DNA from: Anaerofustis stercorihominis DSM 17244
Lineage (GTDB): Bacteria > Bacillota > Clostridia > Eubacteriales > Anaerofustaceae
DNA length: 64,000 bases
Assembly (NCBI RefSeq): GCF_000154825.1
Contig: NZ_DS560019.1
Span: 434,001 to 498,000 of the forward strand
Reading direction: 5' to 3'
The notes below the pieces were generated by a model. That model saw only the letters and a program-made list of their open reading frames with translations, had not been told where the DNA came from and ran no database searches. The position numbers and the translations under genes are program-made. The number at the start of each line of letters is the position of its first letter. Position 1 is the first letter of the stretch. Of the stretch, positions 3,945-27,542 are shown piece by piece.

Positions 3945-4265
3945 ATGATTACTGTATTAGTTGTATGCGGAAGCGGTGTCGCAACATCGACTTTAGCATC
4001 TGAAAAATTAAAGTCGTTATGTAAAGATGAGAACATAGAAATTGATACATATCAATGCAAGACCTCTGATGCAAAAGCCAGAAAAAAAATGATTGATCCT
4101 GATATTATAGTTACTACTACAAATATGAATGAGGAGTTTGATATACCCGTCATTAACGGAAAAGCGTTGATTTCAGAGGTTGGCATTAAAGAATTTAAAC
4201 TTGAATTCTTTGAAGCTATGGTAAAATTATTGGGCTCTAAATCAAGTTCGGTACAAAACGGTTAA
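3945..4265 (+). CDS. PTS EIIB component, galactitol family
   Basis: A 106-residue cytoplasmic EIIB domain. The phosphorylation loop VVCGSGVATST puts the phospho-cysteine at residue 8, and the domain ends with a conserved (V/L)NGKALISEVGIKEF segment. EIIB accepts phosphate from EIIA and passes it to the sugar during transport by EIIC. It has an eight-residue tail beyond the usual end (KSSSVQNG) and no EIIC beside it; the next gene is a second EIIB. It may serve one of the two EIICs in the locus or act as a phosphorylation sensor for the PRD regulator. The pairing is inference. Confidence 0.85.
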   Translation: MITVLVVCGSGVATSTLASEKLKSLCKDENIEIDTYQCKTSDAKARKKMIDPDIIVTTTNMNEEFDIPVINGKALISEVGIKEFKLEFFEAMVKLLGSKSSSVQNG

Positions 4266-4367: not shown

Positions 4368-4652
4368 ATGAAAACTATTTTAGTTGCATGTGGAACAGGT
4401 ATTGCTACATCTACAGTAGCTGCAAAAAAATGTGAAGGAATTTGTAAAGAAGCTGGTATTCAAGTTAAAACAGTTCAATGTAAAGCTGCTGAAACTGCTT
4501 CAAAAGTTAAAGTTATCAAACCAGACGTAATCGTTGGTACTACTGATATTCCTGGAGACATCGGTGATACTCCACTTCTTAACGGTAGATGCTTACTTAC
4601 AGGTGTTGGCCTAAAACAATTCAAAGAAGATTTAGTAAACGCTGTTAAATAA
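4368..4652 (+). CDS. PTS EIIB component, galactitol family
   Basis: A 94-residue EIIB with the loop VACGTGIATSTV (Cys8). It is strikingly similar to the EIIB encoded at 10061-10345: both start MKTILVACGT and share KTVQCKAA, suggesting a recent paralogue pair. AACGGAGGATTTT gives a strong ribosome-binding site and an intrinsic terminator follows, so this gene is either the end of a two-EIIB operon or its own unit. No permease gene adjoins it. Its codon choice (GTT, GCT, GGT, ACT) looks like that of a well-expressed gene, unlike the EIIB at 22398. Confidence 0.88.
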   Translation: MKTILVACGTGIATSTVAAKKCEGICKEAGIQVKTVQCKAAETASKVKVIKPDVIVGTTDIPGDIGDTPLLNGRCLLTGVGLKQFKEDLVNAVK

Positions 4653-5046: not shown

Positions 5047-5799
5047 ATGTTAAAAGGAAAAGTAGCAATTGTAACAGGTGCGGGAACAGGAATAGGAAAA
5101 GCAATAGCAGAGCTTTTTGGCAAAAACCGTGCAGATGTGGTTATTAATTATCGCTCAAGTGAAAAATCAGCTAATGAAGTAAAAGAAACCATTGAAAAAA
5201 TGGGCTCAAAAGCAATTACAATAAAAGCGGATATTTCAAACTATGAAGATTGTGTTAATTTGGTTAATAAAACAATAGAAGAATTTGGACATATAGATAT
5301 TTTGGTAAATAACTCGGGTATGGGTCTTTCTAAGAACAGCATACTGGATATAACTAACGAAGAATATCATAAACTTATGCAAATAAATATGGACGGAACA
5401 TATTACATGACAACCCTGGTATTAAAACAAATGGAAGAACAAAAAACAGGCGGAAGTATTGTAAGTATTTCTTCATCTGCAGTAGAACAGCCAAGCAGCG
5501 GAAACGGCGCTTATGCAATGAGTAAAGCTGGTGTTGAATTATTAATGCGCTCAGTTGCACAAAATCATGGTATCAATAAAATAAGATGCAATATAGTTGC
5601 TCCGGGACCTACAGAAACAGATATGGTCAGAGAATTTTTCAGCGAAGAAAAGAGAAAAAGAGTTACAAACGAAATCCCTCTAAGAAAATTTTCAGAACCA
5701 GCAGAAATTGCTCAAGCAGTACTATTCTTTGCCAGTGATATGTCAAGTAATGTAACAGGTCAAAAAATCCACGTTGACGGTGGCAGAACAATAAGATAA
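5047..5799 (+). CDS. SDR-family NAD(P)-dependent oxidoreductase
   Basis: A 250-residue classical short-chain dehydrogenase. The cofactor loop TGAGTGIG is at residues 10-17, NNSG near 88, the catalytic serine in ISSSA, and Tyr156/Lys160 in YAMSK; the C-terminus DGGRTIR closes the fold. FabG-like sequence, but placed beside EIIB genes and a second SDR, so a polyol or keto-sugar substrate is more likely than acyl-ACP. AAAGGAGAG precedes the ATG. The following SDR starts 17 bases after its stop, indicating co-transcription. Confidence 0.85.
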   Translation: MLKGKVAIVTGAGTGIGKAIAELFGKNRADVVINYRSSEKSANEVKETIEKMGSKAITIKADISNYEDCVNLVNKTIEEFGHIDILVNNSGMGLSKNSILDITNEEYHKLMQINMDGTYYMTTLVLKQMEEQKTGGSIVSISSSAVEQPSSGNGAYAMSKAGVELLMRSVAQNHGINKIRCNIVAPGPTETDMVREFFSEEKRKRVTNEIPLRKFSEPAEIAQAVLFFASDMSSNVTGQKIHVDGGRTIR

Positions 5800-5816
5800 T
5801 TATAAAAGGAGAAAAA

Positions 5817-6635
5817 ATGGAAGAGAAACTTTTAGGAAAAGTTGCCTTAATAACAGGGGCAGCAAGAGGAATAGGAAGAGAATACGCTTTAAGACTTGCT
5901 AAGCTCGGAGCAGATGTAGTAATTACGGATTTAGACATAAAAGCCTCTAAATTCAAAGAAGAAGATGTATTGGCTCCTACAGTAAAAGAAGAGATTGAAG
6001 TACTGGGAAGAAAGTCAATGGCATTTGAAGGTGATGCAACAGATGATGAATTCGGAAAAATGGTAATTGAAGAAGTAATAAAAGAATTCGGACATATTGA
6101 TATTCTCATTAATAATGTAGGCGGAACGGGAGGAGCCGGTCCTGCTCTTGCAACAGAAATGGAAACAGACAAATTTGTACACGCACTACATATAAATCTT
6201 TTATCTGCTTTTATTTTCTGCAAATATGCGGGTAAGCAAATGAAAGCACAAAAGAGCGGCAAAATAATAAATATTTCATCTGTAGGAGGTTCTGTTCCAC
6301 TATTTATCACTCAGGCACATTACTCTGCAGGAAAAGCCGGAGTAGATGCTCTGACAAGAATGTTTGCTCTTGAACTTGCGCCTTACGGAGTAAATGTAAA
6401 TGCGGTTGCACCGGGCTACATACACACGGTTAAATGGGATGCACACTTTGAAGAACAATTTAAAGAATTAACTGAAAAAGTACCTATGGGAAGACTTGGA
6501 ACTACAGAAGACTGTGCGAAAGTAATCGAATTTTTAGCAACTGATTTATCTGATTATATGACAGGACAAGTGCTTTATATTGACGGAGGACTAAAAACAC
6601 TTAATCCGTCTTCATCAAAAGTCAACTTATATTAA
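5817..6635 (+). CDS. SDR-family NAD(P)-dependent oxidoreductase
   Basis: A 272-residue short-chain dehydrogenase with TGAARGIG at residues 13-20, the catalytic serine in NISSV and Tyr169/Lys173 in YSAGK. It differs from its upstream neighbour by an insertion after the second strand (IKASKFKEED region), seen in sugar- or polyol-type SDRs that bind larger substrates. The two genes form an operon; having two unlike SDRs suggests consecutive oxidation and reduction of a sugar, or two substrates. The exact substrate is not readable from sequence. Confidence 0.83.
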   Translation: MEEKLLGKVALITGAARGIGREYALRLAKLGADVVITDLDIKASKFKEEDVLAPTVKEEIEVLGRKSMAFEGDATDDEFGKMVIEEVIKEFGHIDILINNVGGTGGAGPALATEMETDKFVHALHINLLSAFIFCKYAGKQMKAQKSGKIINISSVGGSVPLFITQAHYSAGKAGVDALTRMFALELAPYGVNVNAVAPGYIHTVKWDAHFEEQFKELTEKVPMGRLGTTEDCAKVIEFLATDLSDYMTGQVLYIDGGLKTLNPSSSKVNLY

Positions 6636-6651
6636 TTTTACATCAGAACAC

Positions 6652-6680
6652 TTGAAATCAAATGAAATTTAATTTATAAT
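6652..6680 (+). promoter_or_regulatory. Promoter of the cysteine-less EIIB gene
   Basis: TTGAAA (6652-6657), exact 17-base spacer, TATAAT (6675-6680), followed 20 bases later by the ribosome-binding site AAGGAGAG. This gives the EIIB-like gene its own transcription start, separate from the SDR operon. Confidence 0.7.
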
Positions 6681-6712
6681 ATTAAAGGATAAAATCGTAA
6701 GGAGAGTAAAAT

Positions 6713-6988
6713 ATGAAAATTATAGTAGCAGCAAGCATGAAAGATGCAAAATTTGCTAAATTTGAAGATTTAATTCAAAAAAATTGCGGAAAAGACGTAG
6801 AAGTAGTAAAATGTAATGTAATTACAGACAACATCGAAGAATTAATCGCATCAGAAAATCCTGCAGCAATCGTAAAAGTAGGTGTAAAGGTTCCTGATAC
6901 AGATATTCCTGTAATAGACGGACTAGCTCTTAATTACCCACAAATGGGAGCAAAAAAACTTTTTGATGCTATTAATGCCTTAAAATAA
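6713..6988 (+). CDS. EIIB-like protein lacking the phospho-cysteine
   Basis: A 91-residue protein that aligns end to end with the EIIB proteins of this locus: MKIIVA at the start, VEVVKCN against VKTVQCK in the middle, and IPVIDGLAL...GAKKLFDAINALK against TPLLNGRCL...GLKQFKEDLVNAVK at the end. The phosphorylation loop, VACGTGIATST in its relatives, is replaced by VAASMKDAKFA, so the acceptor cysteine and the glycines are gone; Cys25 and Cys34 lie elsewhere. It therefore cannot be phosphorylated at the usual site. It has its own consensus promoter, ribosome-binding site and terminator, arguing against a decaying copy. A regulatory decoy or structural partner of an EIIA, EIIC or PRD protein is a possible role; that is inference. 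Confidence 0.72.
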   Translation: MKIIVAASMKDAKFAKFEDLIQKNCGKDVEVVKCNVITDNIEELIASENPAAIVKVGVKVPDTDIPVIDGLALNYPQMGAKKLFDAINALK

Positions 6989-7000
6989 TTAAATGAACAA

Positions 7001-7030
7001 AAAAAGACTCTGCATAAGCAGAGCTTTTTT
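7001..7030 (+). terminator. Intrinsic terminator, EIIB-like gene
   Basis: Stem CTCTGC/GCAGAG with ATAA loop, preceded by A-rich and followed by CTTTTTT. It can act in both directions and probably also ends the convergent CHAP gene. Confidence 0.85.
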
Positions 7031-8665: not shown

Positions 8666-9970
8666 TTATAGACAAACCATTTTAGCTAACATGAATGGGA
8701 ACCATGTAATCCATTGAGCACCAAGAGCGATGTTTGATAATTGAGCAGCACCTTCAGGAACTGTTAAGTTAGCAGCACCTGCTAAGTTTGTCATAACTGT
8801 ACCTGCATATGTAGAGAATGTTAGATAGATAATACACATAATAATTACTTCTATTAAACCTCTGAATAAGTTACCTTTGTTAGGTAATACGGCACAAATT
8901 ACGTAGAATGGAAGTGCAGCTAAGTCAGCTAATGGTAATACTGTATTCCAAGGTAATATAACTGCTTCTACTAAGATAATAGGAATAGCTAATAGACCTA
9001 ATGAAATAACGAATGGATGACCTGTAGCTACGGCAGCATCAAGACCGATGTATAATTCTCTTCCTGGGAATCTCTTTTCAAGGAATGCTTGTGTCATTTC
9101 TGAGATTGGCATTAAACCTTCCATTAATAGAGCAACCATTCTAGGGATAAGAACTAATACAGCAGCGATATTCATACCAACGATTAGAATTTGTTGAATT
9201 GCAGTTCCTACATTTACTTCAGGAGCTGTAAATTGAGATAATGCTGATAAGAAACCACCGATGATGAAGCCCATCATGATTGGTTCACCTAGTAAACCAA
9301 GCTTTTCTACGATACCTTCACTTGTCCAGTGAATGTCTTTTACGCCAGGGATCATTCCTAATAATTTATCCAATGGATATGTTACGATACAGTTACACAT
9401 TGATTGGATATGTGGAAGTGAGATACCATCAAGACCGAATACTTCAACACAGTCAGCTTGTGTCCAGTCAGCTACGATAAAGATTATACCCATCATTAAT
9501 ACTGCTTGACCTATAGCGAATACCCATGCTAAAGCTGTTCCTTTACATACAAGAAGGATAGCTGATGCTGAGAATAATACGTGCCAGTAATTCCAGATAT
9601 CAACGTCCATTGTTTTTGTCCAACCTAAAGCGATCATAATAATATTTGTTATGATAACTGCTAGGAATACGAAAGGTACGGCTTCTGTTGACCATGCGAT
9701 AGCAGAACCTGCAGCCCAACCAACATCGATAGTTGTTAGTGGGAAGTTTAAGTTATCTACTAGTGCTTGTGCAACCGGTGTAATTGTAGAAGACATAATA
9801 CCGATAACAGCATTAAGTCCGATGAAACCAACACCGAAAGTCATACCAGCTCTTAAAGCTTCACCGAATTTAGCACCCATTACTAAGCCTAAAATTGTGA
9901 AGATGATTGGCATCATTACTGATGCGCCCATGTCTATAATATAACTAAACGCGTTTGTTACAACTTGCAT
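8666..9970 (-). CDS. PTS EIIC permease, galactitol (GatC) family
   Basis: A 434-residue polytopic permease of the galactitol PTS family, about the usual length for GatC. The start resembles other GatC proteins (MG-rich first helix, MGAKFGEALRAGMTFGVGFIGLNAV), and the signature GEPIMMGFIIGGFL lies near residue 228. It carries the polyol across the membrane while EIIB phosphorylates it. It is the second gene of an operon after the EIIB at 10061-10345, with no EIIA; the EIIA at 27063 is a likely partner because both show the same smooth, well-expressed codon style. The substrate cannot be told from the sequence. Confidence 0.9.
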   Translation of the reverse strand: MQVVTNAFSYIIDMGASVMMPIIFTILGLVMGAKFGEALRAGMTFGVGFIGLNAVIGIMSSTITPVAQALVDNLNFPLTTIDVGWAAGSAIAWSTEAVPFVFLAVIITNIIMIALGWTKTMDVDIWNYWHVLFSASAILLVCKGTALAWVFAIGQAVLMMGIIFIVADWTQADCVEVFGLDGISLPHIQSMCNCIVTYPLDKLLGMIPGVKDIHWTSEGIVEKLGLLGEPIMMGFIIGGFLSALSQFTAPEVNVGTAIQQILIVGMNIAAVLVLIPRMVALLMEGLMPISEMTQAFLEKRFPGRELYIGLDAAVATGHPFVISLGLLAIPIILVEAVILPWNTVLPLADLAALPFYVICAVLPNKGNLFRGLIEVIIMCIIYLTFSTYAGTVMTNLAGAANLTVPEGAAQLSNIALGAQWITWFPFMLAKMVCL

Positions 9971-10060
9971 TGTTTTTCTCCTTTAAAATTAAAATTGTTT
10001 GTTTTCTATGTTAAATATTTTTTTCGCTTACTTTTAAAATTCGTATAATACCTAATGAAG

Positions 10061-10345
10061 TTAATTTTTTAATACTTCTAATAATTCATCGATACATTCT
10101 TTAAGTTTAATACCTGTTAAAAATGCTCTTCCATTGAGTGTCTTGCAAGGGAAGTTGCCAGGTAAATCACATGTACCAATTACCAAATCTGGTAATATTT
10201 CATTTGCTCTTGAAGCAGCGTCTGCAGCTTTACACTGAACAGTCTTTACTTCAATATCGTTTTGTTCGCAAAGTCTCTCAACTTTTTTAGCAACTACTGT
10301 AGATGTAGCAATAGCTGTTCCACAGGCTACTAATATTGTTTTCAT
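10061..10345 (-). CDS. PTS EIIB component, galactitol family
   Basis: A 94-residue EIIB with VACGTAIATSTV; Cys8 is the phospho-acceptor, and the usual glycine after CGT is alanine. It is the first gene of the EIIB-EIIC unit and so the cognate partner of that permease. GGGGGTGATTAGAG supplies the ribosome-binding site. Very close in sequence to the EIIB at 4368-4652, which has no permease of its own. Transcription starts at a strong promoter (10504-10532) with a perfect palindrome in the untranslated leader. Confidence 0.9.
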   Translation of the reverse strand: MKTILVACGTAIATSTVVAKKVERLCEQNDIEVKTVQCKAADAASRANEILPDLVIGTCDLPGNFPCKTLNGRAFLTGIKLKECIDELLEVLKN

Positions 10346-10457
10346 CTCTAATCACCCCCGGTTGAAGTTGTAAGCATTCAAAAAATATTCTAACCGTTTT
10401 TAAGTATGAAATTGTCAATCATCACAATGGATTATTAAAATCTCATTAATTTAAATT

Positions 10458-10472
10458 ATGTAACTGTTACAT
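10458..10472. promoter_or_regulatory. Operator-like perfect palindrome ATGTAACTGTTACAT
   Basis: A 15-base perfect inverted repeat, half-site ATGTAAC, located about 25-40 bases downstream of the inferred start site of the EIIB-EIIC operon. That position suits a repressor. The same half-site in a different arrangement appears at 11963-11974 and 27750-27762, and the related GTAAACGTTAC at 27637-27647. The rest of the 10346-10643 spacer shows only the promoter. Confidence 0.5.
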
Positions 10473-10503
10473 TTACACACAAATGAAACTTTGTTACGTA
10501 TTA

Positions 10504-10532
10504 AGTATAATACTTTAACTAAAATTTGTCAA
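10504..10532 (-). promoter_or_regulatory. Promoter of the EIIB-EIIC operon
   Basis: Minus-strand TTGACA (10527-10532), exact 17-base spacer, TATACT (10504-10509). Near-consensus, in keeping with strong expression of this PTS. Confidence 0.8.
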
Positions 10533-10643
10533 CCTTTATATAGGCTTAAATTCCTTAATTAAAGCTATAGTAAATATATATTACGTTTATTATAATTTAT
10601 TACTAAAGTTAAAGTAAAGTTCTAATATAATTTTAATAAACTA

Positions 10644-10671
10644 AAAAAGAAGCTTATAATTAAGCTTCTTT
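10644..10671 (-). terminator. Intrinsic terminator of the SDR/membrane-protein operon
   Basis: Stem GAAGCTTA/TAAGCTTC with a four-base loop, followed by TTTTTTAG on the minus strand; it overlaps the stop codon region of the membrane-protein gene. Confidence 0.85.
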
Positions 10672-11098
10672 AAGCAAATTTTGTAACACTTAATAAGAAT
10701 AACAGCATCAAAAGAGAGAAAACAGCAACACCGAATGCAAGCCTTGCCATAAAAGTAGCCTGAGATACTTTTTTTTCCATATCGGCTATTCTTTTTTCCG
10801 TCAGATCATAAATATCAAGAGTTTGATTATTGGCAGCTTTTTGAGCCTCTTCCTCTTTCATCAAATCAATGGGATTAATGCCGACATTTCCGCCTATTAA
10901 AGGAGAAAACGCTCTTTTTCTTAGACTTTTTTTATAACTTGCAAGTATTTTTCTTCTATCTTCACCACTGGTAGGGTCAAGATGAAATTCCTTTTCTTCT
11001 TCTACTGTTTCTACTGTGTCTTCACTGAGAAGATTATCATTTTCTTCTTCAGTAACATTAACTTCATCATTAGTTAATGTTTTATTTTCTTCACTCAT
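10670..11098 (-). CDS. Unknown tail-anchored membrane protein in the polyol locus
   Basis: A 142-residue protein I do not recognise. Residues 1-45 are strongly acidic and probably disordered (many Glu, Asp, Asn); 45-75 hold a basic stretch (DRRKILASYKKSLRKR) and a Gly/Pro segment (PLIGGNVGINPIDLM); 80-110 look helical; the last 28 residues form one membrane span, FMARLAFGVAVFSLLMLLFLL. It thus looks like a C-terminally anchored protein with a cytoplasmic domain. Its ATG is one base after the stop of the SDR gene, so the two are tightly coupled and share a promoter. The function is unknown; a membrane adaptor for the pathway is only a guess. Confidence 0.65.
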   Translation of the reverse strand: MSEENKTLTNDEVNVTEEENDNLLSEDTVETVEEEKEFHLDPTSGEDRRKILASYKKSLRKRAFSPLIGGNVGINPIDLMKEEEAQKAANNQTLDIYDLTEKRIADMEKKVSQATFMARLAFGVAVFSLLMLLFLLSVTKFA

Positions 11099-11099
11099 A

Positions 11100-11861
11100 C
11101 TAAACGCTTAAACTCCTACCGCCGTCAGCAATAACAACTTCGCCGTGAATAAATGATGGTGTATTTAAGAAATAAACAATATCAGCTACTTCCGTAACAT
11201 CCATAAATCTTCCTAGTGGAACAGTTTTCTTTCTGTCTTCGAGTCCTTGAGGATCATCTTTAAATCTTTCTGCCATAAGCGGTGTCATGATTAAAGTCGG
11301 AGCTACGGCATTGATTCTTAAACCTGTATCACCAAAGAATCTAGCTATACTTCTTGTCATAGAAACTACAGCACCTTTACTTGCAGCGTAAGCAACACTT
11401 CCGCCGCCGCCTGAGAATGCAGCTGTTGAAGCAACATTAACTACTGATGGAACTTGATCTTTATCTTTAGCTTTTAATAATAGATCTATTAAAGAAATTA
11501 TCATATTATAAGGTCCGTTTACGTTAATATTCATAGTTCTGGCAAATACTGCAGGATCTAAACTGATTTCTTTTGGATCTCCGCCCGGTGCAATTGCAGC
11601 GTTGTTAACTAAAGTAGTTAAATAACCATATTCTTTTTCAACTAATTTAGCAACTTCTTTAACATTATCAAGATTTGAAATATCACATTTAACTGCATGA
11701 GCAACTGTTCCGTTTGATTCTAATTCTTTCTTAGTTTCAAGCATACCAGCTTCATCAAAATCTACAATTATGATATCATATCCTTCTTTAGCAAATTTTT
11801 CACAAATAGCTTTACCAATACCTTTGGCTCCGCCTGTAATAACTACATTTTTTTTAGCCAT
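11100..11861 (-). CDS. SDR-family NAD(P)-dependent oxidoreductase
   Basis: A 253-residue short-chain dehydrogenase: TGGAKGIG at residues 9-16, NNAA near 87, Ser145 in VASTA, Tyr158/Lys162 in YAASK, and a C-terminal DGGRSLSV. First gene of a two-gene operon whose second gene encodes the unknown membrane protein. The promoter is near perfect and carries two palindromes just upstream, so the gene is probably under the control of the locus regulator. By context it would oxidise or reduce a polyol or keto-sugar; the substrate is unassigned. AGGAGAGTGAAATAAAC precedes the ATG. Confidence 0.86.
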   Translation of the reverse strand: MAKKNVVITGGAKGIGKAICEKFAKEGYDIIIVDFDEAGMLETKKELESNGTVAHAVKCDISNLDNVKEVAKLVEKEYGYLTTLVNNAAIAPGGDPKEISLDPAVFARTMNINVNGPYNMIISLIDLLLKAKDKDQVPSVVNVASTAAFSGGGGSVAYAASKGAVVSMTRSIARFFGDTGLRINAVAPTLIMTPLMAERFKDDPQGLEDRKKTVPLGRFMDVTEVADIVYFLNTPSFIHGEVVIADGGRSLSV

Positions 11862-11904
11862 GTTTATTTCACTCTCCTAAATAACAAAATTTTATCTATC
11901 ACGT

Positions 11905-11933
11905 ATTATATAACATAATATTCCCGTTGTCAA
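11905..11933 (-). promoter_or_regulatory. Promoter of the SDR/membrane-protein operon
   Basis: Minus-strand TTGACA (11928-11933), exact 17-base spacer, TATAAT (11905-11910): a full consensus sigma-A promoter. Confidence 0.88.
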
Positions 11934-11974
11934 TTACTTATGTAATTTTTTTATTTTTATCATTACATATGTAA
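11934..11974 (-). promoter_or_regulatory. Tandem operator palindromes abutting the -35 box
   Basis: TTACTTATGTAA (11934-11945, centre near -41.5 relative to the inferred start) and TTACATATGTAA (11963-11974, centre near -70.5), 29 bases apart. The -41.5/-70.5 placement is typical of activators of the CRP/FNR/PrfA type. A match to the distal site recurs at 27750-27762, and a second 29-base-spaced pair is at 4952-4992. The regulator is not identified. Confidence 0.5.
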
Positions 11975-12021
11975 CACAGTAATTTTGCTTAGGCTTTTCT
12001 TGATTATTTTATTGTATTTTT

Positions 12022-12051
12022 AAAAAATAAGGTGGTTATAAACCACCTTAT
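12022..12051 (-). terminator. Intrinsic terminator of the epimerase/dehydrogenase operon
   Basis: Perfect 11-base-pair stem ATAAGGTGGTT/AACCACCTTAT with ATA loop, followed by TTTTT on the minus strand, 30 bases after the dehydrogenase stop. Confidence 0.92.
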
Positions 12052-12080
12052 CTTGAATACATTATTTAGTTTATTATAAA

Positions 12081-13133
12081 CTATTTCATTTCAGGATCGA
12101 ATAATACTTTAAATCCTGTTACGTTAGCAGCTTTATTGAAAGCTTCTTCCCAATCTTCAAGTTTCATAACATCAGATACTAATGGTTTAATATTGATTTT
12201 ACCTGCAGCAACTAAATCAACAGCTCTTCTCCAAGCAGTTGGTTTTTGAGAAAGTGTACCTTGGATTCTGATTTCTTTTTCTTGAATTCTACCTAAATCT
12301 AAGTAGTCAGGAGATGGACCGTGGAATACGCCCATTTGAGAAATTGTACCGGTTTTCTTAACGATATCAAGACATGTATTTAATGATGGATAAGCACCTG
12401 ATGCTTCAACAACAACATCAGCACCATAACCGTCTGTTAAATCCATAACAAGAGCTTTTAAATCTTCTTCTTGTTGGTTTACACAATAATCGATACCTAA
12501 TGTTTTAGCGATTTCCAATCTATGTTTATCTTGGTTGATACCTGTTAAAATAACTGTCGAGTTGTTTGCTTTAGCAGCTAAAGCAGCAAGTGTACCGATT
12601 GGACCAGGTCCGCAAACTACAACAACTTCATCAGCATGTGTAGTAGTTGTTTCTCTAACAGCATGGATACCGCAAGCAAGTACTTCGATCAACGCACCTT
12701 CTTCAAAGCTCATACTATCAGGCATTGGAATACAGCTTGTTGCAGGAACTTCTACATATTCAGCGAATACACCGTTCTTTTTAGAACCGATACCCAATCT
12801 TTCAATACATACATTTGTGTTACCTACCGCACAGTTTCTGCATTTACCACATACTTTATATGTAGTCATAACAACAACTCTGTCACCTACTTTAACACCT
12901 TCTGCATCTTCACCTAATTTATCTACGACACCACAACCTTCATGTCCGATAATAACAGGTAATTCACCTAATCTGTCAGAACCGAATTTCCAATATGCTA
13001 AATCTGTAGCACAGATACCGCCTCTTTTTACTTTAACTCTAACATATCCTCTTTTAGGTTCAGGAACAGGGAACTCTCTAAGTTCAAGTTGTCTGTCCTC
13101 ATTAAGGCATAAGCCTCTCATCATTTCACTCAT
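12081..13133 (-). CDS. Zinc-dependent polyol dehydrogenase (MDR family)
   Basis: A 350-residue medium-chain dehydrogenase. Catalytic zinc ligands are visible in GGICATDL and GHEGCG with a downstream Glu; the structural zinc site is the four-cysteine lobe CGKCRNCAVGNTNVC; the nucleotide-binding motif is VVCGPGPIGTL. The family includes sorbitol, threonine and polyol-phosphate dehydrogenases such as D-arabitol-phosphate dehydrogenase. It ends an operon of two epimerase-family genes and would supply their ketose-phosphate substrate. That pathway position is inferred from context. It is clearly different from the GatD-like enzyme at 15116. GAAAGAGGTAAATAAT precedes the ATG. Confidence 0.85.
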   Translation of the reverse strand: MSEMMRGLCLNEDRQLELREFPVPEPKRGYVRVKVKRGGICATDLAYWKFGSDRLGELPVIIGHEGCGVVDKLGEDAEGVKVGDRVVVMTTYKVCGKCRNCAVGNTNVCIERLGIGSKKNGVFAEYVEVPATSCIPMPDSMSFEEGALIEVLACGIHAVRETTTTHADEVVVVCGPGPIGTLAALAAKANNSTVILTGINQDKHRLEIAKTLGIDYCVNQQEEDLKALVMDLTDGYGADVVVEASGAYPSLNTCLDIVKKTGTISQMGVFHGPSPDYLDLGRIQEKEIRIQGTLSQKPTAWRRAVDLVAAGKINIKPLVSDVMKLEDWEEAFNKAANVTGFKVLFDPEMK

Positions 13134-13152
13134 TATTATTTACCTCTTTCTT

Positions 13153-13827
13153 TTATTTTACAGAGTCTTTCATTTTTTGAATAAGCTCTTTATAATCAGC
13201 ATCATCACCTTTAAAGATTGATGATGTTCCTGCCACCAATACATCCGCTCCGGCTTTTACACATCCCGGAATGGTTTCAGCGTTTATATTCCCGTCTACT
13301 GCTATCATTAAATCGGGATTTCTGTCATCAGCCATTTTTCTTATATTTTCTATTTTGCCAAGGGTTTGCTTAATGAACTTTTGTCCCGCAAATCCGGGAG
13401 AAACCGTCATTGCCAAAACCATGTCTATATCATCGATAAGATATTCCAAACAATCTTCGTTAGTTGCAGGATTTATGGCAACTCCCGCTTTAACTCCCAT
13501 TCTCTTTATATCTCTTAAAACTCTATGGATATGAACTGTACTTTCCGGATGAACGTGAATACAATCATTTTCATCTAAAATACTTGCAATTTTTTCAATG
13601 TGTTTTTCAGGGTGGAACATTGCCAAATGAACATCGAAAGGTATTGAAGTTCTTTTTTTCATTTGTTCGAGCATATAAATACCCATTGCAATATTTTCAA
13701 CATAATGTCCGTCCATCATGTCAAAATGGATCAAATCGGCGCCGGCTTTTTCAAGTTTGTCTAATTCCCATCCAAACTTCATAGGGTTACCGCACATAAT
13801 CGAAGCTGATACTTTTAAATCATTCAT
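13153..13827 (-). CDS. Ribulose-phosphate 3-epimerase family protein, AlsE-like
   Basis: A 224-residue TIM-barrel epimerase. Conserved residues are present: SIMC at the first strand, HFDMMDG, FDVHLAM, MTVSPGFAGQ and VDGN. The SIMC start and the VAGTSSIFKGD end resemble allulose-6-phosphate 3-epimerase (AlsE) more than housekeeping Rpe, which has SPSI and a GSAVF-type ending. It would epimerise C3 of a ketose phosphate. Two bases separate it from the upstream paralogue, so they are co-expressed. Adjacent epimerase paralogues may have different substrates; which ones is not readable here. Confidence 0.82.
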   Translation of the reverse strand: MNDLKVSASIMCGNPMKFGWELDKLEKAGADLIHFDMMDGHYVENIAMGIYMLEQMKKRTSIPFDVHLAMFHPEKHIEKIASILDENDCIHVHPESTVHIHRVLRDIKRMGVKAGVAINPATNEDCLEYLIDDIDMVLAMTVSPGFAGQKFIKQTLGKIENIRKMADDRNPDLMIAVDGNINAETIPGCVKAGADVLVAGTSSIFKGDDADYKELIQKMKDSVK

Positions 13828-13828
13828 C

Positions 13829-14512
13829 TTATTTGTCCTCCCCTACTGCTTTATGTATAATATCTTTCATCTCTTTTGTTAAAGGTTTATATAAATCTCT
13901 GTCACCTTTAAAAATGGCACTGGTTCCGCAAACATAAACGTCTGCACCGGCTTTTGCACATCCCGGAATAGTTTCAGGTCCGATATTACCGTCAACTTCT
14001 ATTAATAAATCAGGATTATATTTTTCCTTCATTTCTTTCAAATCTGCAATTTTTTTATATTGATTTTGTATGAATTTTTCTCCCGAACCGCCCGGGTTAA
14101 CAGTCATCAGGCATACCAAATCGATTTCTTTTATTACTTCTTTCAAAACATTTAAATTAGTTGAAGGATTTAAAACAACACCTGCTTTAGCTCCTGCTTT
14201 TTTTATTCTTAAAATACTTCTATGTAAATGCTTTACTGCTTCTGCGTGAATACAAATATATTCAGCACCGGCTTCTGCAATTCTTTCATAGTATACATCA
14301 GGTTCTACAACCATTAAATGAACATCGAAAATCATATCGCTATGTTTCTTCATACCTTCAAGCATATAAAGTCCCATACCGATATTATTAACAAACTCTC
14401 CGTCCATCACGTCAAAGTGGATCATATCTACTCCGGCGGCTTTTAGTGCATCTAATTCATCACCGTATTCCAATGCATTTCCACACATTATCGAAGCTGC
14501 TATTTTATCCAT
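13829..14512 (-). CDS. Ribulose-phosphate 3-epimerase family protein, AlsE-like
   Basis: A 227-residue TIM-barrel epimerase, paralogue of the next gene: ASIMCGN, HFDVMDG, FDVHLMV, MTVNPGGSGEKF, EVDGNIGPETIPGC and CGTSAIFKGD. The catalytic aspartates and metal-binding histidines are in place. It is the first gene of a three-gene operon (epimerase, epimerase, dehydrogenase) with its own promoter, immediately after a terminator that ends the upstream operon. Divergence from the canonical Rpe at 16243 in the loop after NPG, which contacts the sugar phosphate, suggests a different substrate. Confidence 0.82.
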   Translation of the reverse strand: MDKIAASIMCGNALEYGDELDALKAAGVDMIHFDVMDGEFVNNIGMGLYMLEGMKKHSDMIFDVHLMVVEPDVYYERIAEAGAEYICIHAEAVKHLHRSILRIKKAGAKAGVVLNPSTNLNVLKEVIKEIDLVCLMTVNPGGSGEKFIQNQYKKIADLKEMKEKYNPDLLIEVDGNIGPETIPGCAKAGADVYVCGTSAIFKGDRDLYKPLTKEMKDIIHKAVGEDK

Positions 14513-14548
14513 ATAAGTACGTCCTTTCTTAATTTTTTACCATGTCTT

Positions 14549-14577
14549 ATTATACAATTATTTAATATTTAGGTCAA
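14549..14577 (-). promoter_or_regulatory. Promoter of the epimerase-epimerase-dehydrogenase operon
   Basis: Minus-strand TTGACC (14572-14577), exact 17-base spacer, TATAAT (14549-14554). It follows directly on the terminator of the preceding operon. No locus palindrome is visible beside it. Confidence 0.8.
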
Positions 14578-14580
14578 TAC

Positions 14581-14624
14581 AAAAACGAAATCCCAAAGAA
14601 AAGGCTGCTTTCTGAAGGATTTCG
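14581..14624 (-). terminator. Terminator between the RpiB-like and epimerase genes
   Basis: Two-part hairpin: CGAAATCC/GGATTTCG outer stem and AGAAA/TTTCT inner stem, followed by TTTTT on the minus strand. It lies 12 bases past the RpiB-like stop and splits the minus-strand genes into separate operons. Confidence 0.8.
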
Positions 14625-14636
14625 ATTTTTTATTAA

Positions 14637-15116
14637 TTATTTAGTTCTGTATTTAGCTTCCATTTCAGCCATAACGCCAAGTCTTTCAGTAAATCTTGGT
14701 TCTTTTGAATATTCAGTTTCGATCCAAACTTTAGCTATTTCAGCCATTAGTCTAGGCGCAATAACTCTGGCACCCATTGTAAGGATGTTTAATTTTGTAT
14801 CGCTCTTAGCAAATTTTGCTGTGAATAATTCGTTACAAACAGCAGCTCTTGCACCGGGAACTTTATTGGCAGCTACAGACATACCAACACCGTTGCCGCA
14901 CATTAAGATACCGCCTGTTTCACCTTTTTCATCATTAACTACATCTAAAGCAACCGCTTCAGCGATTTGAGAAAATTGAACAGGAGGTTTTGGCGCATCA
15001 GGTCCTTTATCGATAACCTTGATTCCCCAAGATTCCAATTCTTTAATAAGTAATTTTCTTTCTTCTATTGCAGCATGATCAGAACCGATCGCAATTGTTT
15101 TAAATTGACCTTCCAT
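14637..15116 (-). CDS. RpiB/LacAB-family sugar-phosphate isomerase, altered active site
   Basis: A 159-residue RpiB-fold aldose-ketose isomerase. GSDHAA keeps the Asp/His pair near the start and CGNGVGMSVAANK keeps the catalytic cysteine, but the usual CGTG is CGNG. The region that in ribose-5-phosphate isomerase B carries the ring-opening histidine (SRxHN) reads AKSDTKLN here, and the GGRH segment reads KEPRF. RpiB relatives acting on galactose-6-, allose-6- or tetrulose phosphates also vary at these sites. So the fold is sure but the substrate is probably not ribose 5-phosphate. The stop of the GatD-like gene overlaps its start by one base. Confidence 0.85.
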   Translation of the reverse strand: MEGQFKTIAIGSDHAAIEERKLLIKELESWGIKVIDKGPDAPKPPVQFSQIAEAVALDVVNDEKGETGGILMCGNGVGMSVAANKVPGARAAVCNELFTAKFAKSDTKLNILTMGARVIAPRLMAEIAKVWIETEYSKEPRFTERLGVMAEMEAKYRTK

Positions 15117-16189
15117 TATTTTTCTACTCCTTCTGGGAAGAATAAAATCTTACCAAATAATGTTTTTCTTTCATAATTAGCCTTAAATACTTCTTCAATT
15201 TCGTCTAAAGGATATCTATGAGTGATTATTGGAGAAAAGTCTAGCATACCTTTTTCAAGGAAAGCAACTACGCTTGTCCATGGTTTTCCAGGGAAACCTT
15301 GTTGAATAGCATTCCAAGCACCGTAGATTGTAAGTTCGCTTCTTCCGATTTTTTCAAAATATTCTCTTGGAATAGTAATATCGCCGTATGGGATACCTAA
15401 GTATAATACTTTGGCACCTTTACATCCAAGACCCAATACTTGAGCGGATGTTACAGGAGTACCGCCTGATTCGATAACAACATCAACGCCTCTGCCGTTT
15501 GTTACATCAAGCACACCGTTTCTAGCTGAATCGTAATCATCGATTTTTGAAAGAACCACATCAGTTGCTCCGCAAGCTTTAGCCCATTCAAGTTTTTCTT
15601 CCATGATATCTATAGCAATTATTCTTTTAGCTCCAAATACCTTTGCAGATTGAATAGCAAGTAAACCGATAGGTCCGCAGCCCATAACCGCTACATCATC
15701 TCCGGGTTGCATGTTAAGTTTATATAAACCGTGGAAACATACACAAGTTGGTTCAATTAAAGCAGCTTGTTCAAAACTTACACTTTTAGGAAGTGGAACC
15801 AAGTTTCTTTCAGGAAGTGCGATGTACTCAGCAAAAGCACCGTCTCTAACAGCACCGATAACTTCAAGAGTCATACATCTTGCATATTCACCTTTTTTAC
15901 AGTATTCGCATTCGAAACAAGGAAGTGCAGGACATGCAGTTACATGATCTCCTGCTTTATAACTTGTTACGCCTTCACCAACTTCGGCAACTTCACCGCT
16001 AAATTCATGTCCCCATACCAATGGACCCTTTTCAGGGAATTTAGGTCCTAATTTTGTATATCTTGAAAGGTCAGATCCACAAATACCAACAGCTTTAACT
16101 TTAATTAAAACTTCGCCCGGTTTAACTTCAGGCATTGGAACTTCTTCAAGTCTTAAATCTTGTTTTCCATATAATCTTGCAGCTTTCAT
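15116..16189 (-). CDS. Galactitol-1-phosphate 5-dehydrogenase-like zinc dehydrogenase
   Basis: A 357-residue medium-chain dehydrogenase that resembles E. coli GatD along its length: GICGSDL, GHEFSG, LPCFECEYCKKGEYARC (structural zinc lobe, four Cys), RDGAFAEYI, IEPTCVCFHG, and VMGCGPIGLLAIQ for NAD binding. GatD oxidises galactitol 1-phosphate to tagatose 6-phosphate; related enzymes use other polyol phosphates. It sits between an Rpe gene and an RpiB-like isomerase in one operon, consistent with ketose-phosphate processing. No tagatose-6-phosphate kinase or tagatose-bisphosphate aldolase is in the window, so true galactitol use is not shown. Confidence 0.82.
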   Translation of the reverse strand: MKAARLYGKQDLRLEEVPMPEVKPGEVLIKVKAVGICGSDLSRYTKLGPKFPEKGPLVWGHEFSGEVAEVGEGVTSYKAGDHVTACPALPCFECEYCKKGEYARCMTLEVIGAVRDGAFAEYIALPERNLVPLPKSVSFEQAALIEPTCVCFHGLYKLNMQPGDDVAVMGCGPIGLLAIQSAKVFGAKRIIAIDIMEEKLEWAKACGATDVVLSKIDDYDSARNGVLDVTNGRGVDVVIESGGTPVTSAQVLGLGCKGAKVLYLGIPYGDITIPREYFEKIGRSELTIYGAWNAIQQGFPGKPWTSVVAFLEKGMLDFSPIITHRYPLDEIEEVFKANYERKTLFGKILFFPEGVEK

Positions 16190-16242
16190 TTTATTTCTTT
16201 TCTCCTTATATATTTAAATTAATACAACTTGACACATCAAAT

Positions 16243-16890
16243 TTATGCATCTGCAGCTTTTCTTAAATCGTCTAAGTTCTTAGCAACATCTCCTGTAAAA
16301 GCAAAAGAACCTGCTACTATTACGTTCGCACCGGCATCAACAAGTGACTTAACGTTATCAGCGTTTACGCCTCCGTCAACTTGGATATCAATATCTCTGT
16401 CGCCGATCATTTCTTTAATTTCTCTGACTTTTTCAATCATAGTCGGATTGAAAGCTCCACCGCCGCCACCTGGGTTAACTGTCATAACTAGAACCATATC
16501 TATATCGTCTAATACATATTTAAGTACATCAGGTGGAGTTGCAGGGTTAAGAACAACACCGCATTTAACGCCAAATGATTTAATAAGCATCAAACTTCTG
16601 TGTAAATGTGTAGTAGCTTCGGCATGTACAGTTATCATCTGTGCTCCTGCTTTAACAATTCTTTCAATGTATCTGTCAGGTTCTGTAACCATCATGTGTA
16701 CATCAAAGAATAAGTCTGTATGAGGTCTGAGCATAGCAATTTGGTCAGGACCAAAAGCGATGTTAGGAACGTAATTCCCATCCATTACGTCAATATGTAA
16801 CATTTCTACATTGCAGTCTTCAACTGCTTTGATTTGTTCATTAAGTCTTCCAAAATCAGCTCCGAATATTGAAGGTGATAATTTTACCAT
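16243..16890 (-). CDS. rpe: Ribulose-phosphate 3-epimerase
   Basis: A 215-residue TIM-barrel epimerase with the canonical Rpe start (SPSIFGADF), HIDVMDG, FGP, FDVHMMV, MTVNPG and VDGGV. It is closer to housekeeping Rpe than the two AlsE-like paralogues. The loop after MTVNPG is GGGGGAFN rather than FGGQSF, a change next to the substrate phosphate. It interconverts D-ribulose 5-phosphate and D-xylulose 5-phosphate in the family. First gene of the operon rpe - gatD-like - rpiB-like, transcribed from a promoter at 16931-16958. GGAGAGAAGAAAAA precedes the ATG. Confidence 0.85.
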   Translation of the reverse strand: MVKLSPSIFGADFGRLNEQIKAVEDCNVEMLHIDVMDGNYVPNIAFGPDQIAMLRPHTDLFFDVHMMVTEPDRYIERIVKAGAQMITVHAEATTHLHRSLMLIKSFGVKCGVVLNPATPPDVLKYVLDDIDMVLVMTVNPGGGGGAFNPTMIEKVREIKEMIGDRDIDIQVDGGVNADNVKSLVDAGANVIVAGSFAFTGDVAKNLDDLRKAADA

Positions 16891-18914: not shown

Positions 18915-19145
18915 TAACTTTCGTTTCGATACTAAAAATAACCGATAATATTTATTACTTGTATATTTATCCTCATTAAAATACATTTTACAAACATAAA
19001 TCTTATTTTATCCTACTTAACTTCAATAAATATTTTATTCTTTATATAACTTCATTTTTGTAAATCACAATTGACAATAATACATGCAGCACTTGATTGA
19101 ACAGAAAAGACGTGTTTGATAATTTAAAGATAAGAGGTGGGAAAC

Positions 19146-21296
19146 ATGGAACTAAATAACAGATGTTTCAAAATTTTAAGAACACTTTTTGAGAAAGACG
19201 ATTATGTCTCCGTAAAGAGTCTAAGCAAAGAACTTGACTGCTCCGAAAGAATAATCAGATACAACGTAAATAAAATCGAAGAATATTTGAGAAATAAAAA
19301 ATATTCATTTCTTTACAGAGATTATAAAAAAGGATTATTAGTCATAAAAAACAAACAATCTCAAGATTTTTATAATAACTATTTGAATATATCACACCCT
19401 TACGAATATAAGTATTCGGCGGAAGAAAGGTGTTCGTTCATAATCGGATATTTATTAAAGAGAAACGGATATATATCTATAGAAAAATTATCAAACGAAT
19501 TATCGACTTCAATAAGTACGATAACGAAAGATTTGGAAAATGCAGAAAAATGGCTTGAAGATAAAAATACAAAACTTATAAAAAAAGCGGGAAAAGGAAT
19601 TTCAATACAAATCGATGAAATAAAAAGACGTGCTTTATACAGAGAACTGACAGATGAAGTATTAACACCTTCATACGTAATCAATTACATAAGCAATATA
19701 TCTTTAAAGGAAAGAGCAAACACGATACTGCTTGATGATTTATTCAAAGATCTTGACAGAGAATTCCTAATCGGACAAATACAACACCTTGAAAAAGAGC
19801 TGGGAGAAATATTTTCAGATGAAACATTTTCTTCACTCCTAATACATTTATCAATAATCGTGTACAGAGTATCAAGGAACTGTTCATTAAAAGAAATCAC
19901 AGGAGAAACAACTTTAAATAACAGCATTGAATACACACTTACTTCTCAAATCATAGAGAATATAAATACTCGTTTTACTATAACCATACCAAGCGAAGAA
20001 ATCTATTACTTTACAGTACATCTGCTTGGAGCAAAAGTAATCACAAAAAACACAAAATACAAATTCAATGAGACAGAAGCGATAATAATCAGAAATATTG
20101 CTACAAAAATGGTCGAAGAAATAGGCAATTTATACGCAGTGGATTTTAAAGAAAAGAAAGAGGACGTAATAGACGGTCTAATAACGCATTTAATACCTAC
20201 AGTGTACAGAATCAAATATAAAAAAAGGATATTAAATCCCATTTATCCCGAAATGGAGCAGAAATATTCCGACCTTCTGGGAAATACAAAAATCGTATGC
20301 AGACATTTAAGTGAGTACTGCAAGGAAGAAATCAACGAGCAGGAAGTTTCGTATATAGCAATGCACTTTTTAGCCGCACTTCACAGTAAGCTAAACGAAA
20401 AAACGGATATGCCAAAGGCAATCGTAGTATGCGGATCCGGATACGGAACAGCACAAGTAGTGGCAATGCAGCTTTCTTCATTGTTTAGCGTTGAAATAAA
20501 AGCAATCGTTTCTCAAAGAGAAATAATAAATTTGGATAAAAACAACCAAAATTTTGACTACATAATAAGTACCGTTGAAATTGCTAATTTAAGCAAAGAC
20601 GAATATATAAAAATAAGTCCTATGTTTAACCACAATGACTTTTTAGAAATCAATAAACATTTAAGGGCAAAATTTATCAAAAGTAAAATCGATTATAGCC
20701 AATTGGAGCTTGCCGGAAAAATTGCAGAAATATCAATGAAGTACAGACCCAAAGTAAATAAACTTCAGCTCCAGTATGAAATATTATTGGAACTTATAAA
20801 TCAAAACAGAAATAATGCACCGGAATATACGAACGAAAGTGAAATAAATTTAAAAGATTTGATCACACCGTCATTTATAAGACTTAATGAACTCTGCGGT
20901 ACCTGGCAGGAAGCAATAATCAAAGGAACTAAAATACTTGAAGAAAAAAACTTTATAACAGATGCGTATAAAGTCGCAATAATCAAAAGCATAGAGGAAA
21001 TGGGTCCTCAAATGGTAATAGTACCGGGAATAGTCCTCGCTCATTTAGCACCGGGGAAATACTGTAAAAAGCTGGGGTTTTCCATTACGACGCTGAAGAA
21101 ACCCGTTATATTCGGATTTCCCAGACACGACCCCGTAAAAGTTGTGATAACACTGTCTCTGGTAAATGAGAATACCTATAAGAAGGCTCTTATGCAGTTA
21201 TTCAATATATTACAAAACAAAAACACAAGAAGCGTGCTAATAAATGCAACGAACAAAAATGAAATACTGGACTTAATAAAACAATATTCATCATAG
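19146..21296 (+). CDS. PRD-domain transcriptional activator with EIIB and EIIA domains (LicR/MtlR type)
   Basis: A 716-residue regulator. Domains in order: HTH (about 5-60), second HTH (85-150), PRD1 (185-285) with His in LLIHLS and FTVHLLG, PRD2 (300-405) with His in LITHLIP and IAMHFLAAL, a galactitol-type EIIB (about 420-505; VVCGSGYGTAQ with the cysteine kept) and a type-2 EIIA (about 570-716; VLAHLAPG with the histidine). Such proteins sense PTS phosphorylation state and activate the adjacent operon. I chose ATG 19146, behind GAGGTGG; a GTG three codons earlier is part of that site. It heads the operon that encodes dehydrogenase, EIIB, EIIC, aldolase and EIIA. Confidence 0.9.
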   Translation: MELNNRCFKILRTLFEKDDYVSVKSLSKELDCSERIIRYNVNKIEEYLRNKKYSFLYRDYKKGLLVIKNKQSQDFYNNYLNISHPYEYKYSAEERCSFIIGYLLKRNGYISIEKLSNELSTSISTITKDLENAEKWLEDKNTKLIKKAGKGISIQIDEIKRRALYRELTDEVLTPSYVINYISNISLKERANTILLDDLFKDLDREFLIGQIQHLEKELGEIFSDETFSSLLIHLSIIVYRVSRNCSLKEITGETTLNNSIEYTLTSQIIENINTRFTITIPSEEIYYFTVHLLGAKVITKNTKYKFNETEAIIIRNIATKMVEEIGNLYAVDFKEKKEDVIDGLITHLIPTVYRIKYKKRILNPIYPEMEQKYSDLLGNTKIVCRHLSEYCKEEINEQEVSYIAMHFLAALHSKLNEKTDMPKAIVVCGSGYGTAQVVAMQLSSLFSVEIKAIVSQREIINLDKNNQNFDYIISTVEIANLSKDEYIKISPMFNHNDFLEINKHLRAKFIKSKIDYSQLELAGKIAEISMKYRPKVNKLQLQYEILLELINQNRNNAPEYTNESEINLKDLITPSFIRLNELCGTWQEAIIKGTKILEEKNFITDAYKVAIIKSIEEMGPQMVIVPGIVLAHLAPGKYCKKLGFSITTLKKPVIFGFPRHDPVKVVITLSLVNENTYKKALMQLFNILQNKNTRSVLINATNKNEILDLIKQYSS

Positions 21297-27062: not shown

Positions 27063-27542
27063 TTACGCTTCTTCTGCTTGTTTAGCTAATTCTTCTTCAA
27101 CAATTTTTAAAATCAAATCTTTATCTTTTGATTCGTAAATCGCTTTTAGTTTATCTTCTTGTTGGATAAGAGAAATAACTGTTTGTAGCATAGCTAATTG
27201 TTGATGTGGTTCTTTTAATGCTAACATGAATAAAATCGAAACTTCACATTTTTCTCCTGCACCTGCCATAACTTCAAATGTTACAGGTTTTTTAAGAGTA
27301 GCAACACAAATACTTTGTTTGTTAACATGTTCAACATCTGTATGAGGAACAGCTACTGCAAAGTTTTCTACAGGAAGTCCTGTTGCAAATACTTTTTCTC
27401 TTTCTTTTACCGCTTCTACATAACTTTCTTTTACATAACCAAGATCTAATAATTTGTGTGCAACGTTATCAAGTGCATCTAAATTACTGTCAGCCTCCAC
27501 ATCAAAAAATATAAGGTCTTTGTTAAATTCTAAATCTGCCAT
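27063..27542 (-). CDS. PTS EIIA component (fructose/mannitol/galactitol type)
   Basis: A 159-residue type-2 EIIA with the phospho-histidine at residue 67 in VAVPHTDVEHVNKQSIC. It lies in an operon with an unknown membrane protein and no EIIB or EIIC. The likely partners are the EIIB/EIIC pair at 8666-10345, which lacks an EIIA; the three genes share the same codon style and GTAAC-type palindromes near their promoters. AAGGAGGAGATACC precedes the ATG. The C-terminal Lys/Glu-rich helix extends beyond that of the paralogue at 24742. Confidence 0.9.
   Translation of the reverse strand: MADLEFNKDLIFFDVEADSNLDALDNVAHKLLDLGYVKESYVEAVKEREKVFATGLPVENFAVAVPHTDVEHVNKQSICVATLKKPVTFEVMAGAGEKCEVSILFMLALKEPHQQLAMLQTVISLIQQEDKLKAIYESKDKDLILKIVEEELAKQAEEA

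Follow-up and report, generated by a model that had tools for sequence, protein, structure and literature searches.

PTS control is normally read through the phosphorylation of EIIA, EIIB and PRD proteins. The closest described systems are EIIB-Gat itself (GatB; PF02302, NF007643), which has its phospho-acceptor cysteine in the loop after strand 1, and the EIIB-Gat-like domains of several regulators. In PRD-containing virulence regulators of the AtxA/Mga type, such a domain is fused to HTH and PRD parts, and its reported role in AtxA, RivR and Mga is multimerisation (PMC8560693). The cysteine of the Mga domain is disputed, in that earlier work had a glutamine at this position while a realignment argues for a cysteine (PMC11537053). 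MtlR of B. subtilis also uses an EIIB-Gat-like module in regulation (PMC8560693), which is fused to PRDs and keeps the phosphorylated Cys419.

Here we describe a small gene in a 64,000-nucleotide stretch of the Anaerofustis stercorihominis DSM 17244 genome (hereafter the window; Table 1), the product of which, the KDAK protein, is a free-standing relative of these domains. It resembles GatB in predicted fold, length and whole-length profile homology, and in having EIIC-Gat and EIIA as neighbours. Unlike GatB, the KDAK family lacks the phospho-acceptor cysteine, carries two other active-site motifs, forms a separate clade and misses the Pfam and NCBIfam cut-offs for EIIB. With the AtxA/Mga type it shares the EIIB-Gat fold, as judged from a predicted model (VIA Z 9.9 to AtxA 392-475). 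However, those domains are fused, whereas the KDAK protein is free, 91 residues long and has no DNA-binding part, and we therefore do not file it as a member of that type. It is not fused to a PRD or HTH part; the reading frame has its own start, promoter and terminator and sits with a polyol PTS. A conserved EIIB relative not open to the usual phosphorylation, retained beside working EIIBs, would act on a sugar transporter independently of phosphorylation, and the KDAK protein would offer a small, soluble test case for EIIB-like modules that are not phosphoryl carriers.

Table 1. Features of the window discussed in the text, with positions counted from its first nucleotide.
Feature	Position	Strand	Basis
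Canonical EIIB-Gat (CGSGVATS)	3945..4265	+	this genome's EIIB matched by the KDAK family profile
Canonical EIIB-Gat (CGTGIATS)	4368..4652	+	curated family match
SDR-family dehydrogenase ending VDGGRTIR	5047..5799	+	similar SDR near the homologue in G015, G017 and G018
Second SDR-family dehydrogenase, directly upstream of the KDAK gene	5817..6635	+	family match
Own sigma-70-type promoter, TTGAAA-N17-TATAAT	6652..6680	+	promoter scan; same N17 layout 5' of orthologues in L007, L008 and L009
Ribosome-binding site, AAGGAGAG	6699..6706	+	sequence
Cys-less EIIB-Gat-like protein ('KDAK' protein), 91 aa	6713..6988	+	ORF; AlphaFold pLDDT 91.8; profile-profile family homology
Rewritten phospho-Cys loop, residues 6-16 (AASMKDAKFAK)	6728..6760	+	family alignment; profile comparison
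Rewritten second active-site loop, residues 69-82 (DGLALNYPQMGAKK)	6917..6958	+	family alignment; EIIBs have NGxxxLTGxG
Bidirectional terminator-like hairpin	7007..7024	.	terminator scan; T-tract hairpins also after orthologues in L007 and L008
EIIC-Gat permease of the clade co-occurring with the KDAK gene	8666..9970	-	family match; EIIC tree
Canonical EIIB-Gat adjoining the EIIC-Gat permease	10061..10345	-	family match
Rest of the polyol cluster	10670..16890	-	similar gene content in G017 and G018
Regulator with PRD-type and EIIA-like regions	19137..21296		
EIIA	27063..27542		

Two SDR dehydrogenase genes precede the KDAK gene, which sits between EIIB genes and a polyol cluster on the reverse strand that includes EIIC and EIIB. 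The rest of this cluster encodes a small membrane protein, an SDR, two zinc alcohol dehydrogenases, three ribulose-phosphate-epimerase-like proteins and an RpiB-like isomerase, an enzyme set that looks like a pathway for pentitol or tetritol use. An Rfam scan of the window from 3 to 12 kb returned two tRNAs and no riboswitch. The reading frame opens with ATG, with AAGGAGAG just 5' of it. The preliminary description had credited the gene with a dedicated promoter and terminator, and both are borne out. The promoter matches the consensus at 11 of 12 positions, but chance alone should yield 3.8 promoter-like sites over the 800 bp scanned, such that the scan taken alone is weak evidence; the N17 spacing, with TATAAT at approximately the same distance, recurs 5' of the three orthologues listed in Table 1. 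The terminator scan returned two sites against 0.3 expected, and hairpins with a T-tract likewise lie 3' of two of these orthologues. Evidence for high, stoichiometric expression is ambiguous, as the two codon measures disagree: by CAI the gene ranks third among 58 genes, while log-odds give no separation from background.

Comparison with individual EIIBs says little about ancestry. Pairwise identity of the KDAK protein to the window EIIBs is 19-24%, and BLASTP against the three gave E-values of 0.004 and 0.19 and, in one case, no hit, so that pairwise similarity alone is insufficient to establish homology. An EIIB profile scored the KDAK protein by itself at 10.2 bits, with the best of 20,000 shuffled decoys at 13.8 bits, and scored three of the ten family members, all distant ones, at 31-33 bits. 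In a profile-profile comparison with hhalign (ten KDAK family sequences versus 18 EIIB rows), family and EIIB aligned over 87 columns with P 96.5 and E 9.3e-10, with no gap through the loop and with the EIIB cysteine opposite Ser8, as had been drawn originally. Run on other genomes, the KDAK family profile also matches canonical EIIBs over its positions 2-89, the lowest per-genome E-value being 2.2e-6. Alignment with EIIBs is thus demonstrable only at the family level, where the profile evidence is solid. The original claim of a whole-length match to the EIIBs at 4368 and 10061 stands for the family and not for the pairwise comparisons; the nearest window EIIB is the one at 3945-4265, which had not been cited.

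Curated resources do not capture this relationship. All three window EIIBs match Pfam or NCBIfam models while the KDAK protein does not, and none of the ten family members matches PTS_IIB (PF02302) or NF007643. Scans with Pfam, NCBIfam and PHROGs gave no credible family for any member scanned, and no curated Pfam or NCBIfam family holds any of the ten. The family profile found nothing significant among PDB sequences and no match in a plasmid collection; in a class-wide sample of 391 genomes and a phylum-wide sample of 398, it recovered, beyond the family members, just EIIBs and weak matches. NF007643, used to gather EIIBs from further genomes, matched this genome alone. In the open-licence literature we found no paper on a free-standing, Cys-less EIIB.

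Structure prediction, which had been proposed as a check against EIIB-Gat, returned an EIIB-like fold rather than a different one. The AlphaFold model of the KDAK protein (pLDDT 91.8, pTM 0.82) has as its best solved matches S. aureus GatB (5gqs) and the EIIB-like domain of AtxA, each at VIA Z 9.9, with receiver domains close behind at VIA Z 8-9.5. By itself, this model shows an EIIB-like Rossmann arrangement and, with receiver domains so near, is no proof of an EIIB. A second model, of a distant family member and built from the same family alignment (pLDDT 88.4), ranked GatB first at VIA Z 10.9, and its top four Foldseek matches were all EIIBs (lac, Gat, Gat and cellobiose; E 4e-4 to 1.4e-3). 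An EIIB fold is thereby predicted by two models, the best solved matches of which are EIIB-Gat and other EIIBs.

The loops that form the active site in EIIBs have been rewritten. Where an EIIB reads ACGTGIATST, the KDAK protein reads AASMKDAKFA, with Ser8 at the position of the cysteine and with D11, K13 and K16 conserved; across the family this loop follows the pattern [AG][SG]xx[DN]xKxxK. The second loop has changed from NGxxxLTGxG to [DN]GLxLxYPxMG. The phospho-acceptor cysteine is absent from all ten members, being replaced by serine in the branch of Anaerofustis and L008 and by glycine elsewhere, which upholds the original proposal of an EIIB relative without its phosphorylation cysteine. 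No substitute conserved cysteine or histidine occurs at the former active-site face in the family alignment; the near-invariant C25 sits at the far end of helix 1 and is valine in L008. Eighteen columns are invariant over the ten sequences, which come from two bacterial classes, among them K13, K16, N35, P66, G70, L71, L73, Y75, P76, M78, G79 and K82, with D11 nearly invariant and D/N69 conserved. That both loops have turned into new invariant motifs suggests that the former active-site face has acquired a different binding role.

The ten sequences comprise the window protein and nine homologues: one each from another A. stercorihominis genome (92% identity), a Lachnospiraceae MAG of rumen origin (79%) and a Eubacteriaceae MAG (53%), three from separate genera of another family within the order (37-42%), and three from genomes that belong to a different class in the phylum (35-37%). 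Between the window gene and its A. stercorihominis orthologue (L007), dN is 0.04 and dS 0.49 (dN/dS approximately 0.08), and relative to L008 dN is 0.14 with synonymous sites saturated. In a joint tree of the family and EIIBs, which is rough given short sequences and long branches, the KDAK family stands apart from all EIIBs with a 100/99 split. This split marks the family as an old separate clade, present in several lineages, and not as a fresh duplicate of the neighbouring EIIBs. The gene had been described as an EIIB paralogue that lost its cysteine; the Cys-less EIIB relative remains, and the recent paralogy to its neighbours does not. The selected function that had been postulated is supported by the low dN/dS, the conservation in two classes and the recurrent promoter. 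A search for homologues, likewise proposed at the outset, found that they are not all degenerate, and that the loop motif and locus context are conserved.

A remote second Cys-less EIIB-like protein is encoded in G906 (L104 1483-1779), with the loop VATGTSQHKLE and threonine at the cysteine position. It is an orphan, with no PTS gene within approximately 8 kb, and joins the KDAK family's side of the tree; a copy in G907 (L105) appears out of frame near its start. Searching the family of G387 yielded just these remote G906/G907 relatives and an EIIB-level match.

Gene context ties the family to polyol transport, with the reservation that contig ends cut it short in G004 (L009), G015 and G806. 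In G017 and G018 a similar polyol cluster has the KDAK gene at its end, and in L008 an EIIB, the KDAK gene and an EIIC lie together. In another class (G768 and G827), EIIA, EIIC, EIIB and the KDAK gene belong to one co-directed run, which also encodes an FGGY kinase, a glycerol-3-phosphate-dehydrogenase-like protein, an RpiB-like isomerase, an alcohol dehydrogenase and an SDR. Six of 67 genomes of the order have an EIIC with at least 54% identity to that of the window (in G015 this level is reached only as fragments). All six have a KDAK gene, compared with one of the 61 others (G004, where the matching EIIC clade is missing), a co-occurrence with a hypergeometric probability of 7e-8, uncorrected for kinship. 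The clade of the window EIIC in the EIIC tree (100/100) has members only from genomes with a KDAK gene, and the EIICs linked to the gene in G768 and G827 belong to a different branch. The KDAK gene is thus co-inherited with polyol Gat-type PTS clusters.

Conservation along with the PTS in distant bacteria argues that the KDAK gene is not broken and that its product probably serves a sugar-alcohol uptake system as a dedicated partner or regulator. The reading we favour, at a probability of roughly 45%, is that of a stand-alone, catalytically dead EIIB-Gat relative that acts as a non-phosphorylatable partner of its cognate polyol-type PTS. Such a protein would not accept phosphate from EIIA in the usual way; the face that carries the phospho-cysteine in EIIBs would bind a partner from the same PTS (EIIC, EIIA, a genuine EIIB or the protein itself), and this non-covalent binding would set the active fraction of the transporter. 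A precedent exists in AtxA and Mga, whose EIIB-Gat-like domains mediate contacts between subunits. The EIIB fold in both models, the profile homology of a family uniformly without the cysteine, the purifying selection, the co-occurrence with one EIIC clade and the co-directed run in another class are all consistent with this reading. On the other hand, the loops that a mimic of EIIB should keep for docking are rewritten, which a new ligand would fit equally well, the expression evidence is ambiguous, the G906 relative is an orphan and G004 lacks the matching EIIC clade. More broadly, and somewhat more tentatively, the family may be a free-standing EIIB lineage that traded its phospho-cysteine for a new conserved site and serves a subset of polyol PTS in clostridia and relatives as a phosphorylation-independent regulator or ligand sensor.

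The main rival, which is possible though we consider it rather unlikely, is that the EIIB pocket was remodelled to hold a sugar phosphate or polyol phosphate non-covalently, in which case the protein would sense a metabolite or act as a minor polyol-pathway enzyme. The new invariant motifs, with the invariant K13, K16, N35 and Y75 and the conserved acidic or amide positions 11 and 69, would suit such a ligand. Two loci point the same way: in G768 the KDAK gene does not adjoin EIIB but sits between transketolase, present as two halves directly upstream, and the FGGY sugar kinase, and in L009 it follows a PfkB-like kinase (named from its sequence). However, mean conservation is only modestly higher in the loops at the active-site edge than elsewhere (0.70 versus 0.63), so that it is the new motifs, rather than any general concentration of conservation, that carry the argument, and no known ligand-binding family scored above cut-off for the KDAK family.

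Less probable still are two of the roles proposed initially, in which a dead EIIB titrates EIIA or binds the PRD regulator; titration of EIIA is nonetheless plausible, as is the third proposal, that the protein locks EIIC. An EIIB fold without the cysteine would be suited to either, and a regulator with PRD-type and EIIA-like regions does lie approximately 12 kb from the gene. However, the loops around the former phospho-cysteine, where EIIA would dock, are rewritten, which speaks against a plain EIIA decoy. The KDAK homologues in G015, G017 and G018 adjoin a SorC-type sugar-binding regulator, and the stretches examined around them showed no PRD gene; binding of a PRD regulator is accordingly not supported as a general role.

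That the KDAK protein is unrelated to EIIB and merely resembles it through a Rossmann-like fold, such as that of a receiver-like domain, is very improbable: the close receiver-domain scores of the window model and weak, sub-threshold B12-binding matches would fit this view, but we reject it on the sequence-profile homology, the four EIIBs heading the Foldseek list of the second model and the PTS neighbourhood. A decaying, functionless EIIB copy, to which the lost cysteine and the lack of a curated family match for the window protein might point, is refuted by the conservation found, namely the low dN/dS, persistence in two classes, the recurrent promoter and the invariant new motifs.

Several further observations concern the polyol clusters. 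The small protein at 10670-11098 (-) has a C-terminal hydrophobic stretch and a YKxSxKRAxFxPL-like motif and is found beside EIIB in polyol clusters; homologues occur in L016 (4166-4453) and L017 (4488-4775), and neither the window nor the L017 protein has a Pfam match. The A. stercorihominis locus L007 has two EIIC copies in tandem (9933-11237 and 11572-12876), compared with one in the window. The EIIB at 4368-4652 differs from its L007 counterpart (5665-5949) by a dS of 0.045, against 0.23-1.0 for neighbouring genes, which may reflect strong codon constraint or recent gene exchange. Outside the window, an EIIB-Gat gene that immediately precedes an EIIC gene (G000:C5:334974-335240; L052 1501-1767) has an in-frame TGA at the phospho-cysteine position (ILVC-TGA-GGGIATSS). 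The best tRNA-Sec match in that genome is a tRNA-Ser; selenocysteine therefore looks unlikely, and a nonsense change or a sequence error is the more likely origin of the TGA.
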